Origin: Planctomycetota bacterium
GTDB lineage: Bacteria > Planctomycetota > Phycisphaerae > Tepidisphaerales > Tepidisphaeraceae
Direction: 5' to 3'
Length of the DNA stretch: 61,615 bases
Assembly: GCA_038746835.1 (NCBI GenBank)
Contig: JBCDKH010000004.1
Coordinates: 1-61,615, forward strand
A program made the translations under genes and the position numbers. Positions 6,137 to 30,258 of this stretch are shown piece by piece. The first letter of the stretch is position 1, and every line of letters begins with the position of its first letter. The notes under the pieces were generated by a model. The model did no database searches, was not told where the DNA came from, and saw only the letters and a list, made by a program, of their open reading frames with translations.

Positions 6137-7139
6137 ACCGCCACCCAAGCCCACGCTCGACTACGCCGCCGACACCGGCCGGCGGATTCGTTTTCGTCGC
6201 TGGATCGTGCGTGGCATTCTGGTGCTGCTGATCGCCGGCGGAGCTTGGTTGGCGGTCGCGATTCAGCGGGAGTTTCAGCGCGTCGAGAATGAAGAGGCGG
6301 TCGCAGTTTGGGAAGGCAACGCGCGTGCGCTCGAACCGGACTACACCTACTTCCACGAAGATCCACGCCACTTCCACCAGCGATACCGGAGTCTCGCCTG
6401 GGCGGCGGACAACCTCGAAGCCGGGCTGCTCGACGAACGGCGAGAGGTGCGTCTTGCGACCGAGAGGTACCTGATCAAGCTGTTCGAGCTTTATCCGCTC
6501 GAGCCCGGCGTCGAACGCCCCGAGCCGCCGCTGTTCGAGCCCGAGACGCGAGAGATGCTCTGGCGGATCCTGATCGATGAGCAGATTCCCGAGGCGGGGT
6601 TTCCGCTGGTTGTCGATGCGAAACCGATCGACATGCAGCGTGCGATCGACGTGTGGCCGTCGCTTAATCCGGAGATTCAAAACACCGTTCTCTTGATCCT
6701 TCTCGTGTGCGGACCCGAGACGCCCGGCGCTGGCGACCTGATCCTCGCGGCCGCTGGTTCACCCAAGATCATCTTCCTGCCCCCAACGTACGACGCAGTC
6801 TGCTGGTACTGGTTTGACGACGACCGCTATCGGGAACGCCGCGAGGCGTTGGCACTCGACCACTGGCCGGAACGTCCCGACATCAACGCGCTCTTCGATC
6901 CCGCCGAAGCCGTCCGCGTCATCGGCCATGAGACCGACGCAGACGGTCGGCCCACCACCGCCGCCGTCTCGGCTCTGGCTCGCTTCGGTCCGATGGCTCC
7001 AGACGAAGCCGCACCGCTCTTGCCACTGCTCCGTGATGCTGCCGAGGAGACCGCGGACGAGCACCCCGACTATGCAGCCGCCGCCGAGAATGCAGCCGAT
7101 CGAATCGAGGCATCGATGGCCGACGCTCCTCAGCCGTAG
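6126..7139 (+). CDS. Membrane-anchored protein of unknown function
   Basis: A 337-residue protein with a short cytoplasmic N-terminus, one membrane segment (GILVLLIAGGAWLAVAI, about residues 30-46) and a long soluble part rich in acidic and aromatic residues. The C-terminal third (AAVSALARFGPMAPDEAAPL) resembles helical HEAT-type repeats, but this is weak. ATG at 6126 (MTTEPPPKPTL) overlaps the sulfatase stop and is preferred over an in-frame start at 6093. Overlap suggests co-transcription with the sulfatase. Its 3' end overlaps the end of the convergent hisI by 10 bases. Confidence 0.75.
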   Translation: MTTEPPPKPTLDYAADTGRRIRFRRWIVRGILVLLIAGGAWLAVAIQREFQRVENEEAVAVWEGNARALEPDYTYFHEDPRHFHQRYRSLAWAADNLEAGLLDERREVRLATERYLIKLFELYPLEPGVERPEPPLFEPETREMLWRILIDEQIPEAGFPLVVDAKPIDMQRAIDVWPSLNPEIQNTVLLILLVCGPETPGAGDLILAAAGSPKIIFLPPTYDAVCWYWFDDDRYRERREALALDHWPERPDINALFDPAEAVRVIGHETDADGRPTTAAVSALARFGPMAPDEAAPLLPLLRDAAEETADEHPDYAAAAENAADRIEASMADAPQP

Positions 7140-7552
7140 ACCGCGTTCGGATCGAAGGCCTTCTCGTTCTCGACGAACTCCAACGTGCCATCCGGCCGAA
7201 CCGCGCGGTAGAAGCACGAGGCGTAGCCCGTGTGACACGCGGCCTGCGGTGTCTTCTTCGGATCGCCGACGACTACCTCCGCCACGAGACAGTCCTGATC
7301 GCAGTCGACACGCAGACGCTTGAGATGCTGCGTCATGCCGCTGCTCTCGCCTTTCTTCCAAAGCTTGCCACGGCTGCGTGACCAGTACGTGACGTGGCCG
7401 CTCCTGAGCGTCTCATCGAGCGACTCCTGGTTCATGAAGGCGACCATGAGCACGTCCTTCGACTCGGCATGCACCGTCACACACGGCAGCAGGCCGTGGT
7501 CATCGAACTTGGGGGCGAATTCAGTGCCGAGCTCGCGAGCGTGCTTGTCCAC
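7130..7552 (-). CDS. hisI: Phosphoribosyl-AMP cyclohydrolase
   Basis: Third step of histidine biosynthesis, opening the purine ring of phosphoribosyl-AMP. The family core is complete: VLMVAFMNQESLDETL, YWSRSRGKLWKKGESSG, then DCDQDCL (metal-binding Asp residues) and AACHTGYASCFYR with the zinc-type Cys residues. No HisE (pyrophosphohydrolase) domain follows, so this is the stand-alone HisI form. The reading frame extends to 7639, but that part would overlap the cysS start; GTG at 7552 (VDKHARELGTEFAPKFDD) gives 140 residues and fits the family. No other his gene is in the window. Confidence 0.92.
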   Translation of the reverse strand: MDKHARELGTEFAPKFDDHGLLPCVTVHAESKDVLMVAFMNQESLDETLRSGHVTYWSRSRGKLWKKGESSGMTQHLKRLRVDCDQDCLVAEVVVGDPKKTPQAACHTGYASCFYRAVRPDGTLEFVENEKAFDPNAVYG

Positions 7553-7572
7553 GAAGCACGCTACGGTCCGAC

Positions 7573-9075
7573 ATGGCCGACCTGCCGCAGATGCGGTTCT
7601 ACAACACGCTGTCGCACCAGGAAGAAGCGTACGAGCCACTGACGCCGCCGGTCGTGCGGATGTACACGTGCGGGCCGACGGTCTACGACTTCGCGCACAT
7701 TGGCAACTTCCGCTCGTTCCTCTTCGCCGACGTGTTGCGTCGCACGCTGGAGCTGGTCGGGCTCGACGTCCGACACGTGATGAACATCACCGACGTCGGC
7801 CACATGACCGAGGACGATCTGGCTGACGGCGGCGGCGAGGACAAGATGCAGGCGGCCGCCAAAAAGCTGGTCGAGGCCAAGAAGCAGGGCCAAGCCCACG
7901 CCGCCGCCATCGACGATCCGAACAACCCGTACCAGATCGCTGACTTCTACACGAAGGCCTTCCTCGAAGACGGCAAGAAGCTCGGCCTGAAGGTCGCCAG
8001 TGAGTTTGACCAGGGCCGAATGCCCAAGGCCACCGACAACATCGACGAGATGCTCGCCATGATCGGCAAGCTCGTTGAGAAAGGGCACGCGTACAAGGGT
8101 GAAGACGGGGCCGTCTACTTCGGCGTCGAGACCTTCGACGGCTACGGCAAACTCAGCGGCAACTCCGTCGAGCAACTCCGCGGCGGGGCGGGCGGACGCG
8201 TCGGCACCGAAGCCACCGCCGCAAAGCGTCACCCAGCCGACTTCCTGCTGTGGAAGCCCGATGCGACGCACCTGATGAAGTGGCCCAGCGACTTCGGCGA
8301 GGGCTATCCGGGCTGGCACATCGAGTGCTCGGCCATGGCACGCCGGCACCTCGACGCCGATGTCATCGATTTCCACACCGGCGGCGAGGACAACATCTTC
8401 CCGCATCACGAGTGCGAGATCGCACAGAGCTGCTGCGCGACCGGACAAGACAGCTTCGCCAGGTTCTGGCTGCACGGGCGACACCTGCGCGTCGAGGGCG
8501 AGAAGATGTCCAAGAGCAAGGGCAACTTCTTCACCGTCCGCGACGTGCTCGACGGCAGGGCGACCGGAAACGAGGTCGCCCCCGAAGTGCTGCGGTACGA
8601 ACTCATTCGCAGCCACTATCGCGGCACCGCCAACTTCACCGCCAGCGGCTTGCGAGACAGCGGCAGCGCCGTCGCCAAGCTGCAGAAGCTCCACGCCGAT
8701 GCCGCGAGCAAGTCCGACGCGGCCGACGTCTCGCTCGACGTCGGCCCGCTCCCGCGATTCGTGAAGGCCCTGTGCGACGACCTCAACGTCTCCGCCGCCG
8801 TCGCCGCAGTTTTCGAGTGGTCCGCCGACCCAGGCGACGACGCTGCGACCACCCGCGGCATCCTCGACAAGGTCGACAGCGTCCTCGGCTTCCTGCCCGA
8901 CGCCGCAACGCCAGTCGCGGATTCGGACGCCGCCAACCTCGCGTCTAAAATCGACGCCGCCCGCGCCGCCAAGGATTTCGCCACCGCCGACGCCATCCGC
9001 GCCGACCTGCTCGCCCAGGGCTACAAGGTCCTGACAACCAAAGCCGGCACGACGGTCGAAAAGCTCCTGGCGTAG
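7573..9075 (+). CDS. cysS: Cysteine--tRNA ligase
   Basis: Class I aminoacyl-tRNA synthetase of 500 residues that charges tRNA-Cys. The start YTCGPTVYDFAHIGN carries the zinc-binding Cys and the HIGH-type motif HIGN; GYPGWHIECSAM, GGEDNIFPHHECE and WLHGRHLRVEGEKMSKSKGN (KMSKS) follow. The C-terminal part (SKIDAARAAKDFATADAIR) is the usual helical DALR region. ATG at 7573 is used; MRFYNTLSHQE six codons later is an equally good start. It diverges from hisI with about 20 bases between starts. Confidence 0.97.
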   Translation: MADLPQMRFYNTLSHQEEAYEPLTPPVVRMYTCGPTVYDFAHIGNFRSFLFADVLRRTLELVGLDVRHVMNITDVGHMTEDDLADGGGEDKMQAAAKKLVEAKKQGQAHAAAIDDPNNPYQIADFYTKAFLEDGKKLGLKVASEFDQGRMPKATDNIDEMLAMIGKLVEKGHAYKGEDGAVYFGVETFDGYGKLSGNSVEQLRGGAGGRVGTEATAAKRHPADFLLWKPDATHLMKWPSDFGEGYPGWHIECSAMARRHLDADVIDFHTGGEDNIFPHHECEIAQSCCATGQDSFARFWLHGRHLRVEGEKMSKSKGNFFTVRDVLDGRATGNEVAPEVLRYELIRSHYRGTANFTASGLRDSGSAVAKLQKLHADAASKSDAADVSLDVGPLPRFVKALCDDLNVSAAVAAVFEWSADPGDDAATTRGILDKVDSVLGFLPDAATPVADSDAANLASKIDAARAAKDFATADAIRADLLAQGYKVLTTKAGTTVEKLLA

Positions 9076-9199
9076 TGACGCCTACGCAACAGCACGAGGC
9101 CGGTAAGAGCCACCACCGACGCTGTCGCCGGCTCGGGAATCTGCCACATCGCAATGCCGCCTCGCCCGTCCGTTAGGCGACACCGACTGCCGATGCATC
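9076..9199 (-). pseudogene. Orphan PEP-CTERM anchor, probable gene relic
   Basis: Reading the reverse strand from about 9199, after an in-frame stop, gives DGRGGIAMWQIPEPATASVV and then ALTGLVLLRRRHY. This is the full PEP-CTERM sorting signal layout: the PEP motif, a hydrophobic segment and an Arg cluster, matching the two intact PEP-CTERM proteins in this window. There is no protein upstream of it and the frame continues antisense into cysS to a stop at 9021. The best reading is the surviving 3' end of a deleted PEP-CTERM gene. The rest of the gap to 9352 holds nothing I recognise. Confidence 0.6.
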
Positions 9200-9352
9200 A
9201 GATCAAGCCCGCCTCTATACAAAGGAAACTGACCTGATTGACACGACTGGTCACGTCGACGATGTTTTGGCGGATCGAGCGGAGCGGTCGCCCGGCGAAG
9301 TTAGGAAGACCATGGCTGCGGAGCGTGCGGGACCGATCGAAGGAGGTGGACG

Positions 9353-10156
9353 ATGAGCCAGACCTATTGGGTGGCGGGCGTGGAGCGGTCGACGGGGCGT
9401 GAGATCGACCGCAAGGTGCTCGCCGTCGGCGAGCAACAGGTTCGACACGCGATGGATCGCATGGGCGTCGACATTGCGTCGCTGTCGAGCGACGCCGGGC
9501 TAGATCAGACGGGTTCGGATGACGAGGCCAGTGATGACTCGACTACAAATGCCACAGACAAGCCGCTAGAGCGATGGCTGCTTTCTGCCATTTCGTTCAT
9601 TGCTGGCCTGCTCGGAGGGTGCTTTGTGACGTTGATTTTGGTGGCAGAGTCTACGGAATTGGGTGGCGTCGATTTCTCGAACGATGCGAGCCGAGCGTCA
9701 TCGGGCAGGGCCGACCTCCGTGTCTGGCTTCCGGACTTCGAGGACGCCTTCGACTTCGACGCGTCGTCGTTTGAGCGAGTCCCGCCCCCTCAATTCAACA
9801 TCAGCGCAGCCGACAGCATGATCGTCGTCGAGCGAGAGCGGTGGAGCCTTCGATTGCTAATGGTCGGTGACTTGATTTCCTCGGCGACCCTCACTCTCGA
9901 GCCGAATGACCGAGATCTACGGGTCATGGCTAATCTCGAAGTCGGCGACGTGATTGAGCAGCGGGCGGCCGAGTCTTTCTGGATCGCGCTGATCGGGAGC
10001 GGCAATCAGCACCTCCTTTACTCAGACTATCGCAAAGACCTCGAGCGGGCCGCGACGTCTGGCAGGAACGTTGTTGGTGGTCGTTTCCAAGGCGATCAGG
10101 TCCACGTTGTGTGGTCCATCGCCGACGGCGACATGACCCTCACAGCATCGAACTAG
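9353..10156 (+). CDS. Single-pass membrane protein of unknown function
   Basis: A 267-residue protein preceded by a strong ribosome binding site (GAAGGAGGTGG, about 9340-9350). The N-terminal 45 residues are soluble (YWVAGVERSTGREIDRKVLA, a pattern reminiscent of small GYF-like or signal-sensing domains in planctomycetes), then an acidic linker, one membrane segment (LLSAISFIAGLLGGCFVTLI, about residues 75-94), and a C-terminal extracytoplasmic part of about 170 residues without a recognised domain. By eye its codon use is less GC-rich than its neighbours. Function unknown. Confidence 0.7.
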   Translation: MSQTYWVAGVERSTGREIDRKVLAVGEQQVRHAMDRMGVDIASLSSDAGLDQTGSDDEASDDSTTNATDKPLERWLLSAISFIAGLLGGCFVTLILVAESTELGGVDFSNDASRASSGRADLRVWLPDFEDAFDFDASSFERVPPPQFNISAADSMIVVERERWSLRLLMVGDLISSATLTLEPNDRDLRVMANLEVGDVIEQRAAESFWIALIGSGNQHLLYSDYRKDLERAATSGRNVVGGRFQGDQVHVVWSIADGDMTLTASN

Positions 10157-24366: not shown

Positions 24367-24912
24367 ATGGCCGCGATGCGCGCCTTTTCAACTTCGGCCG
24401 GTGTCGGCTCGGTTGCCGACGTGGCGGCGGGGCATGAGGTGCGGCTGCGTCGCTACGCCGCGTCGATCGTGCACGATGTGCAGCGGGCCGAAGACGTCGT
24501 CCAGGACGTGCTGTGCCGGCTCATCGAGCGGCCGACGTCGGCACCAGACGACGCGTCGAGCTTGCGGGCGTGGCTGTTTGCGTCGGTGCGGAACCGGTGC
24601 ATCGACGTGTTGCGAAAGGAAGGTCGCATGAAGGCCCTGGCCGAACTCGATGACGATGCAGTCGGCTCGCCGACGCCGGCGAGCCTGGCCGAGACGCAGG
24701 ACGAGGCCGATCGCGCCTTGGCAGCGCTGGACCAGCTGCCGGCGAGTCAACGCGCCTGCCTGCGGCTGCGATTCAGCGGCAACATGAGCTACCGCGAGAT
24801 CAGCGAAGCCACGGGAAAGAGCGTCAATCACGTCGGCGTGCTGATCCACGAAGGCCTGAAAACGCTGCGGAGTCAACTGATCGGCGACCTGGCCGACGGA
24901 GGTGTGCGATGA
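24367..24912 (+). CDS. ECF-family RNA polymerase sigma factor
   Basis: A 181-residue sigma-70-family factor. Region 2 is LRRYAASIVHDVQRAEDVVQ then DVLCRLIERP and RAWLFASVRNRCIDVLRKEG (promoter -10 recognition); region 4 is LAALDQLPASQRACLRLRFS and MSYREISEATGKSVNHVGVL (helix-turn-helix for -35). The N-terminus to about residue 25 is variable; several Met codons are possible. GGAAC at 24303-24307 resembles an ECF -35 box but no convincing -10 was found. Its TGA overlaps the ATG of the next gene by four bases (ATGA), which points to the next protein as its partner. Confidence 0.92.
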   Translation: MAAMRAFSTSAGVGSVADVAAGHEVRLRRYAASIVHDVQRAEDVVQDVLCRLIERPTSAPDDASSLRAWLFASVRNRCIDVLRKEGRMKALAELDDDAVGSPTPASLAETQDEADRALAALDQLPASQRACLRLRFSGNMSYREISEATGKSVNHVGVLIHEGLKTLRSQLIGDLADGGVR

Positions 24913-26261
24913 ACGAAAACGAACCCCATCTCAACCCGACAGAACGCGAGGCCATCCAGCGGACGGCCTACGCGCTCGGCGAGCTGTCGCCCGACGAGGC
25001 CCGCGACGTCGAGCAACGCCTGGCCGATGACGCGTCGTTGCAGTCGGAAGTCGACGCGACCAAGGCGCTCGCGGACCTGTTGGAGCGCGCGCTCGACGCC
25101 GAGGCGACGGACGTGCCGGCCGTGGCGGGGCGAATCGAGCCGGCGTCGTCGTCATCCTCGTCGCGTTTCGGCTGGGGACTGGCGTTGGCGGCCGCGTTGG
25201 TGTCGGGCGTTGCGGGACTGCTGTTCGTGACACAGGGTGGCGAGCGCGATCGGTCACCGATCGCGATGAACGAGCCGGAGACGGCGGCCGAACCGGATGA
25301 TGTTCCGGCGGAGTCTGCGGCCACCGATCGCCCGTTGCCCGAGACAACCGACCCGGTGGACCGCGGGGTCGCCCGATTGGAGACACGCGAAGTCGCAAGT
25401 GCGGCCGCGATGATGTTGGACGCGGAGGATGCCCCAATCGTCCGGCACCAGCTCGCGCTGCCACGTCGTGCACGCGCTGACTTTGGGAGCGTGCAGGACG
25501 AAACGTCGCGTGCGGCCGCGGCTCTGGCGACGGGCGTCGCGCCTAGGCAGGGTGACGTGTCGAGCGCCGTCCTTGTCAACGCGGTCGAGCACGATTATGT
25601 GGCACCGTCTTCGGAGTCGGACCTTCCCGTCGAGGCCAACCTCGCCGTGATGCCGGCCCCTTGGAACCTGAGCAACCAGCTCGTCCAGGTCGCGATTCAG
25701 GCCCGGCCGTCGGCGGACGACGAGGCAGTGGTCGCGCGTGACGCGGAGGTGGCCGTCGCGTTCAACCCGGATCGCGTTGCGGCCTTCCGTCGGCTGGATG
25801 TCGGGCAGGAGCCGATGGTCCAGGCCGATCAGGACGTGCTCGTCCCGACGCAGGATCTGCTGGCGAATCGGCAGCTGACGGCGTTCTACGAAGTCGTGCC
25901 CGCACAAGAGCCCGCGTTCCCGTCGTTGATGCGCGTCCGGCCATCGAAATCAGATGCGTCGCCGGAGACGTTGATGTCGCTCTCGCTGCAATATCGCTCA
26001 GCCGATGCGGACGACGAGCGGCAGGTGCGCTGGAAGCTGGACGATGCGGCACGGACGCCGATGTCGGAGTCGGCGGTCTTGTTGCTGCGGCTGGGCCTGC
26101 TGCTCAACGATCCGTCGGCCGATGTAGCGAGTTGGCGTCGCCTGCGTGACGACGCTGACGAGCTGCCGACGACGACGACCAAGCCCACGCTGGACGAGTC
26201 ATTGAACCTGCGGATTCGGCGTCTGATTCAAAACGCCGCAGACGAGGCAGAAGGTCGTTAG
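24909..26261 (+). CDS. Anti-sigma-like membrane protein with split YfbK homology and no VWA domain
   Basis: 450 residues. Residues 8-66 (ALGELSPDEARDVEQRLADD) resemble the helical anti-sigma part found ahead of many YfbK proteins. A membrane segment follows (residues 87-108). Residues about 189-266 match the YfbK N-terminal domain (VNAVEHDYVAPSSE, MPAPWNLSNQLVQVAIQA) and residues about 275-420 match the YfbK C-terminal domain DUF3520 (VAVAFNPDRVAAFRRLDVG, LTAFYEVVPAQEP, LSLQYRSAD). In canonical YfbK a VWA domain with DxSxS metal site lies between these two; here they are joined directly and no MIDAS motif exists. Coupled to the sigma factor by ATGA overlap. The most likely role is a membrane anti-sigma factor; activity untested. 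Confidence 0.8.
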   Translation: MNENEPHLNPTEREAIQRTAYALGELSPDEARDVEQRLADDASLQSEVDATKALADLLERALDAEATDVPAVAGRIEPASSSSSSRFGWGLALAAALVSGVAGLLFVTQGGERDRSPIAMNEPETAAEPDDVPAESAATDRPLPETTDPVDRGVARLETREVASAAAMMLDAEDAPIVRHQLALPRRARADFGSVQDETSRAAAALATGVAPRQGDVSSAVLVNAVEHDYVAPSSESDLPVEANLAVMPAPWNLSNQLVQVAIQARPSADDEAVVARDAEVAVAFNPDRVAAFRRLDVGQEPMVQADQDVLVPTQDLLANRQLTAFYEVVPAQEPAFPSLMRVRPSKSDASPETLMSLSLQYRSADADDERQVRWKLDDAARTPMSESAVLLLRLGLLLNDPSADVASWRRLRDDADELPTTTTKPTLDESLNLRIRRLIQNAADEAEGR

Positions 26262-26552: not shown

Positions 26553-28664
<2,112 letters not shown>

Positions 28665-28668
28665 CGGC

Positions 28669-28914
28669 GTGACCTACCGGATCAAGATCACGCCACCGGC
28701 ACTGAAGGATCTTGGACGGCTGACTCCCTCCGTTGCCAGCAGAGTTGTGGATAAGATCGAGCAGCTCAAAGAAGACCTAAGCGGCGACGTCAAGCGTCTA
28801 AAGAACCACCAGCCGCGATACCGGTTGCGTGTCGGCGACTGGCGGGGCTTGTTCGACGTCGAGAAAGACGTCGTCTTTGTCTACCGCGTGCTACACCGAA
28901 GCTCCTCCTACTAA
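28669..28914 (+). CDS. RelE/ParE-family toxin
   Basis: An 81-residue RelE-superfamily protein. Family features: YRIKITPPALKDLGRL, the helix VASRVVDKIEQL, then VKRLKNHQPRYRLRVGDWRG with the catalytic-type Arg residues and VVFVYRVLHRSSSY at the end. Most relatives end HR-x-x-VY-R; the end here is slightly different. RelE-type toxins cleave mRNA on the ribosome, ParE-type ones target gyrase; this one looks closer to RelE. GTG start only four bases after prkA. The toxin precedes the antitoxin, the reverse of most relBE pairs. Confidence 0.85.
   Translation: MTYRIKITPPALKDLGRLTPSVASRVVDKIEQLKEDLSGDVKRLKNHQPRYRLRVGDWRGLFDVEKDVVFVYRVLHRSSSY

Positions 28915-29160: not shown

Positions 29161-30258
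<1,098 letters not shown>

Follow-up and report, generated by a model that had tools for sequence, protein, structure and literature searches.

An ECF sigma factor gene in a Planctomycetota bacterium is followed directly by a gene for a 450-residue membrane protein that joins an anti-sigma-like N-terminus to the two flanking parts of a YfbK protein and lacks the VWA domain that lies between these parts in its relatives. Both genes are located in the stretch of 61,615 nucleotides that was analyzed (referred to here as the window), and their features are listed in Table 1. We favor the idea, with a probability of roughly 60%, that this protein is an anti-sigma factor in which a Sec23/ArnB-like beta-sandwich and a helical bundle carry out sensing without a VWA domain. 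A first-pass annotation of the sequence had proposed that the YfbK flanks can act without the metal-binding domain, and the absence of a VWA domain, a YfbK_C match above the cut-off and the presence of VWA-less homologues beside sigma genes support this proposal.

Table 1. Features of the window and VWA-less homologues found in other genomes (positions refer to the window)
Feature	Residues	Position	Strand	Basis
ECF sigma factor gene, 181 aa		24367-24912, stop included	+	Pfam and TIGR02937 matches
ATGA stop/start overlap of the sigma and anti-sigma genes		24909-24912	+	Sequence
Putative anti-sigma factor gene with VWA-less YfbK-type sensor, 450 aa		24909-26261	+	ORF, Pfam, NCBIfam, AF2
Anti-sigma-like helical domain	10-67	24936-25109	+	NCBIfam models, AF2, residue content
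Single membrane-type helix	90-108	25176-25232	+	AF2 helix, Kyte-Doolittle 2.14
Disordered linker	about 110-164	25236-25400	+	pLDDT below 50
Remaining C-terminal half of YfbK_N, motif APWN	205-266	25521-25706	+	Pfam, alignment, AF2
Predicted junction hairpin loop (VWA of about 190 aa here in relatives)	about 267-273	25707-25727	+	YN-YC gap, AF2
YfbK_C	274-383	25728-26057	+	PF12034
C-terminal helical bundle	387-448	26067-26252	+	AF2; same helices in VWA-containing model
prkA		26553-28664	+	
yhbH/DUF444, own DVSGSM motif		29161-30258	+	
L031, VWA-less, sigma gene upstream (G019, window's family)				
L097, VWA-less, sigma gene upstream (G012, window's family, one-contig 7.2 Mb genome)				
L098, VWA-less, sigma gene upstream (G198, another family)				
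L105 (G719) and L207 (G748), VWA-less, sigma gene upstream				
L108, VWA-less, sigma gene upstream (Opitutae)				
L168, VWA-less, sigma gene upstream (Verrucomicrobia)				

The product of the upstream gene matched Sigma70_r2 (4.2e-13) and Sigma70 r4_2 (2.7e-11) in Pfam as well as TIGR02937 (6.3e-26). Regions 2 and 4 were both above the cut-off and no other domain was present, which places it among the ECF sigma factors. The ATGA overlap with the next gene was confirmed, and the same 4-base overlap also occurs in several VWA-containing relatives. A gene directly after the sigma gene that encodes one membrane helix is the arrangement of a class I membrane anti-sigma factor.

The anti-sigma-type N-terminus and the single membrane helix that had been proposed for residues 8-66 and 87-108 were both recovered in the AF2 model, the first of them as three confident helices. 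The anti-sigma NCBIfam models NF052375 (1.4e-7) and PRK13920 (1.4e-5) matched residues 19-137, both below their cut-offs, and the value for zf-HC2 in Pfam was 0.32. The protein has no cysteine over its whole length and the Hx3Cx2C zinc motif is absent. This motif is optional and missing from about 44% of the anti-sigma domains of class I (PMC7406223), so its absence is no bar to membership in class I.

The YfbK parts are preserved to different degrees. YfbK_N had been placed at residues 189-266; it is present, but it is shorter than claimed and its first half is eroded. PF12450 matched residues 205-260 with an E-value of 0.0039 and 17.6 bits (cut-off 25), and this match covers only profile positions 41-94 of 94, that is, the last 54. 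The match of YfbK_C (PF12034) was above the cut-off (E 1.4e-7, 32.4 bits, cut-off 25). This domain, also known as DUF3520, had been thought to span residues 275-420; it can be recognized by the profile to about residue 383 and is completed by the C-terminal helices. None of the VWA models in Pfam matched the protein at E values up to 1, and only 8 residues separate the two flanks. Compared with a complete YfbK family protein, YfbK_C is present, and a YfbK_N above the cut-off and a VWA domain with the MIDAS motif DxSxS are lacking.

The first-pass annotation had also raised the question of whether the two flanks come together in a single domain, and in the AF2 model (pLDDT 76.9) they do. Following the N-terminal helices, the membrane helix and the disordered linker, the model has a sandwich at residues 241-378 and then three helices. 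The remaining half of YfbK_N supplies strands 241-250 and 253-265 of this sandwich and YfbK_C spans the strands from 274-285 to 370-378. Strand 253-265 leads directly to strand 274-285, with a pLDDT of 93-95 at the junction. In the model of a VWA-containing relative, L130, the strands follow one another in the same order, and the inserted VWA domain (301-480) separates strand 282-290 from strand 482-493. These models suggest that the VWA domain of the relatives sits in the hairpin loop of one beta-sandwich made by both flanks, and that some 8 residues take its place in the window protein, closing the hairpin. The edges of the missing domain, described earlier as clean, are clean structurally, since they correspond to this predicted hairpin, but on the N-terminal side they are not clean in terms of the Pfam domain. 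A Foldseek search with the VWA-containing model gave ArnAB as the best match (6.7e-17), then ITIH1, with Sec23/24 further down. The window model gave weak matches to the gamma-adaptin ear (7.7e-4) and ArnAB (2.7e-3). A sequence search of the PDB yielded no solved structure for these flanks.

For comparison, we built YN, VWA and YC profiles from 11 VWA-containing proteins. All three were matched by 131 ORFs (some of them duplicates), in which the distance between YN and YC had a median of 189 residues and a range of 122-245. Across the 101 related genomes searched, the usual relative combines an anti-sigma part, a membrane helix, YfbK_N, VWA and YfbK_C in one ORF. The VWA domain was confirmed by Pfam in the relatives tested and its metal motif nearly always conforms to DxSGS. 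Among 80 loci of named genomes, the combination of a sigma factor with a YfbK fusion was found in Alphaproteobacteria, Gammaproteobacteria, Acidobacteriota, Verrucomicrobiota, Bacteroidota, Myxococcota, and Planctomycetota. Some loci are arranged in other ways. In genome G016 (L040, 3414-8257), the sigma gene has a stand-alone YfbK gene with a VWA domain on its upstream side and a second one, fused to an anti-sigma part, on its downstream side, the ORFs overlapping. At L044 (5001-8156), galactose-binding domains (F5/8 type C) take the place of YfbK next to a similar anti-sigma N-terminus. At L102 of G092 (6952-9368), two small ORFs lie about 1.9 kb from each other, one with the anti-sigma N-terminus and the other with the YfbK_C end; they may be pieces of a broken gene.

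The window protein is not the only one of its kind. A search for VWA-less homologues beside sigma genes, which had been suggested as a check, returned at least eight further VWA-less proteins from Planctomycetota, Verrucomicrobiota, and Acidobacteriota, and the distance between YN and YC is 0-27 residues in those that are clearly readable. An ECF sigma gene is directly upstream of each homologue listed in Table 1. An exception among the eight is L110 (3401-4699) from Acidobacteria, where VWA-less YfbK_N and YfbK_C follow a membrane-type segment near the N-terminus and there is no adjacent sigma gene. L168 fits the YN and YC profiles just in part, and its distance from the tryptophan to the strand is 32 residues, the same as in the window protein. 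L099, from G025, which shares its genus with G012, is truncated by a contig end and looks VWA-less as well. The sigma-linked L124 (3971-5878) from Verrucomicrobiae has a 187-residue segment in the place of the VWA domain that contains no DxSxS and in which neither Pfam nor our VWA profile found a VWA domain; it is perhaps an intermediate with a degenerate VWA domain. These independent genomes also bear on the idea that the VWA domain was lost only from the window genome, by a local deletion or an assembly error. The window does come from a draft assembly of 335 contigs, but the reading frame is intact across the junction, the same architecture occurs in at least eight other genomes, one of them the one-contig genome of G012, and the sequences are deeply diverged. 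We regard an artefact as ruled out by these genomes, with a negligible probability left to it.

To follow the history of the loss, we compared trees of the sigma factors and of the YfbK domains. In the sigma tree, the window sigma is sister to that of G016 (100/98), which is paired with a VWA-containing protein. The sigma factors of L089/L097, L080/L098 and L108 are likewise sister to those of G022 (99/97), G063 (99/96) and L127 (100/99), respectively, and a VWA domain is present in each sister. In the YfbK-domain tree, L108 falls among VWA-containing Opitutae (99/96). Because four VWA-less sigma lineages are each sister to a sigma factor paired with a VWA domain, we count at least four independent losses, assuming joint descent of the sigma and anti-sigma genes. 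A different history would have the VWA-less form as ancestral, or as having a single origin, with the VWA domain inserted later in the other proteins. The tree count by itself cannot separate gain from loss, and the YfbK-domain tree alone does not reject a single VWA-less clade (AU p 0.18 with two rows and 0.11 with four). However, such a clade is rejected on the sigma tree (AU p 3.5e-7), and pairwise, the grouping of the window with L108, L080 or L089 is rejected with p below 0.01, that with L031 being borderline (p 0.051). In addition, the VWA-less proteins are single tips beside VWA-containing sisters, and the same insertion point in the 131 ORFs from many phyla would require many identical insertions. 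A VWA-less form that is ancestral or of single origin thus appears very unlikely, and these trees support loss, rather than original absence, of the VWA domain in the window lineage. Since the same loss recurred independently in other bacteria, the remaining part probably folds and works without the VWA domain.

It is also conceivable that the sensor is decaying, so that with the VWA domain gone it senses nothing. The anti-sigma part would then be the sole working portion and might receive its signal by a different route. Consistent with this, the first half of YfbK_N is gone from the window protein, which is divergent (identities of 23-29% in alignments) and sits on a very long branch, and erosion is seen in L097 and L168 as well. 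No close orthologue of the window protein was found in the 101 related genomes. Several observations argue against decay. The window protein keeps the core residues W252, N286, P287, R294, E328, and P331, its sandwich is modeled confidently by AF2, and GC by codon position in its YfbK part resembles that of other genes, with the linker differing from the domains. The VWA-less proteins of G719 and G748, which belong to different genera of one family, are 53-56% identical in their YfbK parts, compared with 41% in the anti-sigma part, 34% in the linker and 25% in the junction loop, where the length has changed as well. Values of dN between these two proteins were lowest in the YfbK parts; dS is saturated, making dN/dS indicative only. 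We consider decay of the sensor unlikely.

Another explanation is that a VWA domain is supplied in trans by a different protein that docks on the sandwich. A VWA-type protein of the YhbH/DUF444 kind is encoded 3 kb downstream of the gene pair, and G719 and G748 each encode a VWA-containing paralogue elsewhere. On the other hand, no VWA domain of the YfbK family adjoins any of the VWA-less proteins and, among the matches listed, no further protein of the YfbK type occurs in the window genome. The DUF444 gene belongs to the prkA cluster, which we take to be cytoplasmic. Supply in trans therefore has little probability. Within 4 kb after prkA and yhbH there is no gene of SpoVR size on the + strand, and the long genes that come next have the opposite orientation. 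Immediately downstream of prkA is a gene for a ParE-type toxin (28669-28914; PF05016, E 8.8e-11).

In the explanation that we favor, the VWA-less module would act as the sensor. The N-terminal helices of the window protein would lie in the cytoplasm, where they would bind and inhibit the sigma factor, and the membrane helix would lead to the YfbK-type domain outside the membrane. With the VWA domain lost and the hairpin closed directly, the predicted fold retains the sandwich and the helices. One face of the sandwich, or the helices, may bind a signal such as a periplasmic protein, a peptide or an envelope fragment, and this would occur without a MIDAS metal site. The membrane helix could then relay the signal, whether by regulated proteolysis or through a change of conformation, resulting in release of the sigma factor. 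In a broader form of this idea, to which we give an even chance, the sandwich and helical bundle would be the sensing unit proper of these proteins, and the VWA domain with its metal site a dispensable insert that disappeared from the same hairpin on four or more occasions, the partnership with the sigma factor being kept each time.

YfbK-type proteins are widespread and it is natural to assume that the VWA domain is their working part. Natural VWA-less versions that have kept their sigma partner make it possible to separate the roles of the VWA domain and the flanks, and they offer ready-made constructs with which to test where sensing resides. They further provide a case where an inserted domain was removed repeatedly at one structural point. 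This is comparable to the alpha subunits of integrins, which exist with and without an inserted I domain.

The closest known arrangement is that of the ECF sigma/anti-sigma pairs with a complete YfbK module (L030, L040, L130). The window pair shares with these the upstream sigma gene, the anti-sigma-like helices, the single membrane helix, the linker and the order of the YfbK flanks, but lacks the VWA domain of about 190 residues with its DxSxS motif and has a shortened YfbK_N. A literature search found no description of a fused anti-sigma-YfbK or DUF3520 protein, and an earlier account of the VWA-containing fusion may exist. Stand-alone YfbK of the E. coli type (PF12450, VWA and PF12034) has the flanking domains in common with the window protein; unlike it, stand-alone YfbK contains a VWA domain and has neither an anti-sigma part nor a sigma partner. 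The class I anti-sigma factors RslA (3hug), RskA, and RseA have a helical sigma-binding region at the N-terminus, followed by a single membrane helix. The window protein resembles them in this layout, with its putative sigma-binding helices, and a relative, P0005, matches 3hug weakly (E 0.0078). By contrast with these factors, the window protein has no zinc motif and its sensor is derived from YfbK. ArnB, the predicted E. coli YfbK and Sec23/24 have one architecture in common, consisting of a VWA domain, a beta-sandwich and a helical domain (PMC12852372). In the core of ArnB and Sec23-Sec24, as in inter-alpha-inhibitor heavy chain 1, the beta-sandwich is interrupted by the VWA domain and followed by helices. 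The window protein has a predicted sandwich and helices and the weak match to ArnAB noted above, but it is without the inserted VWA domain and is linked to an anti-sigma-like domain. With the VWA domain absent, the window protein could work only like the non-VWA part of an ArnB/Sec23-like core.
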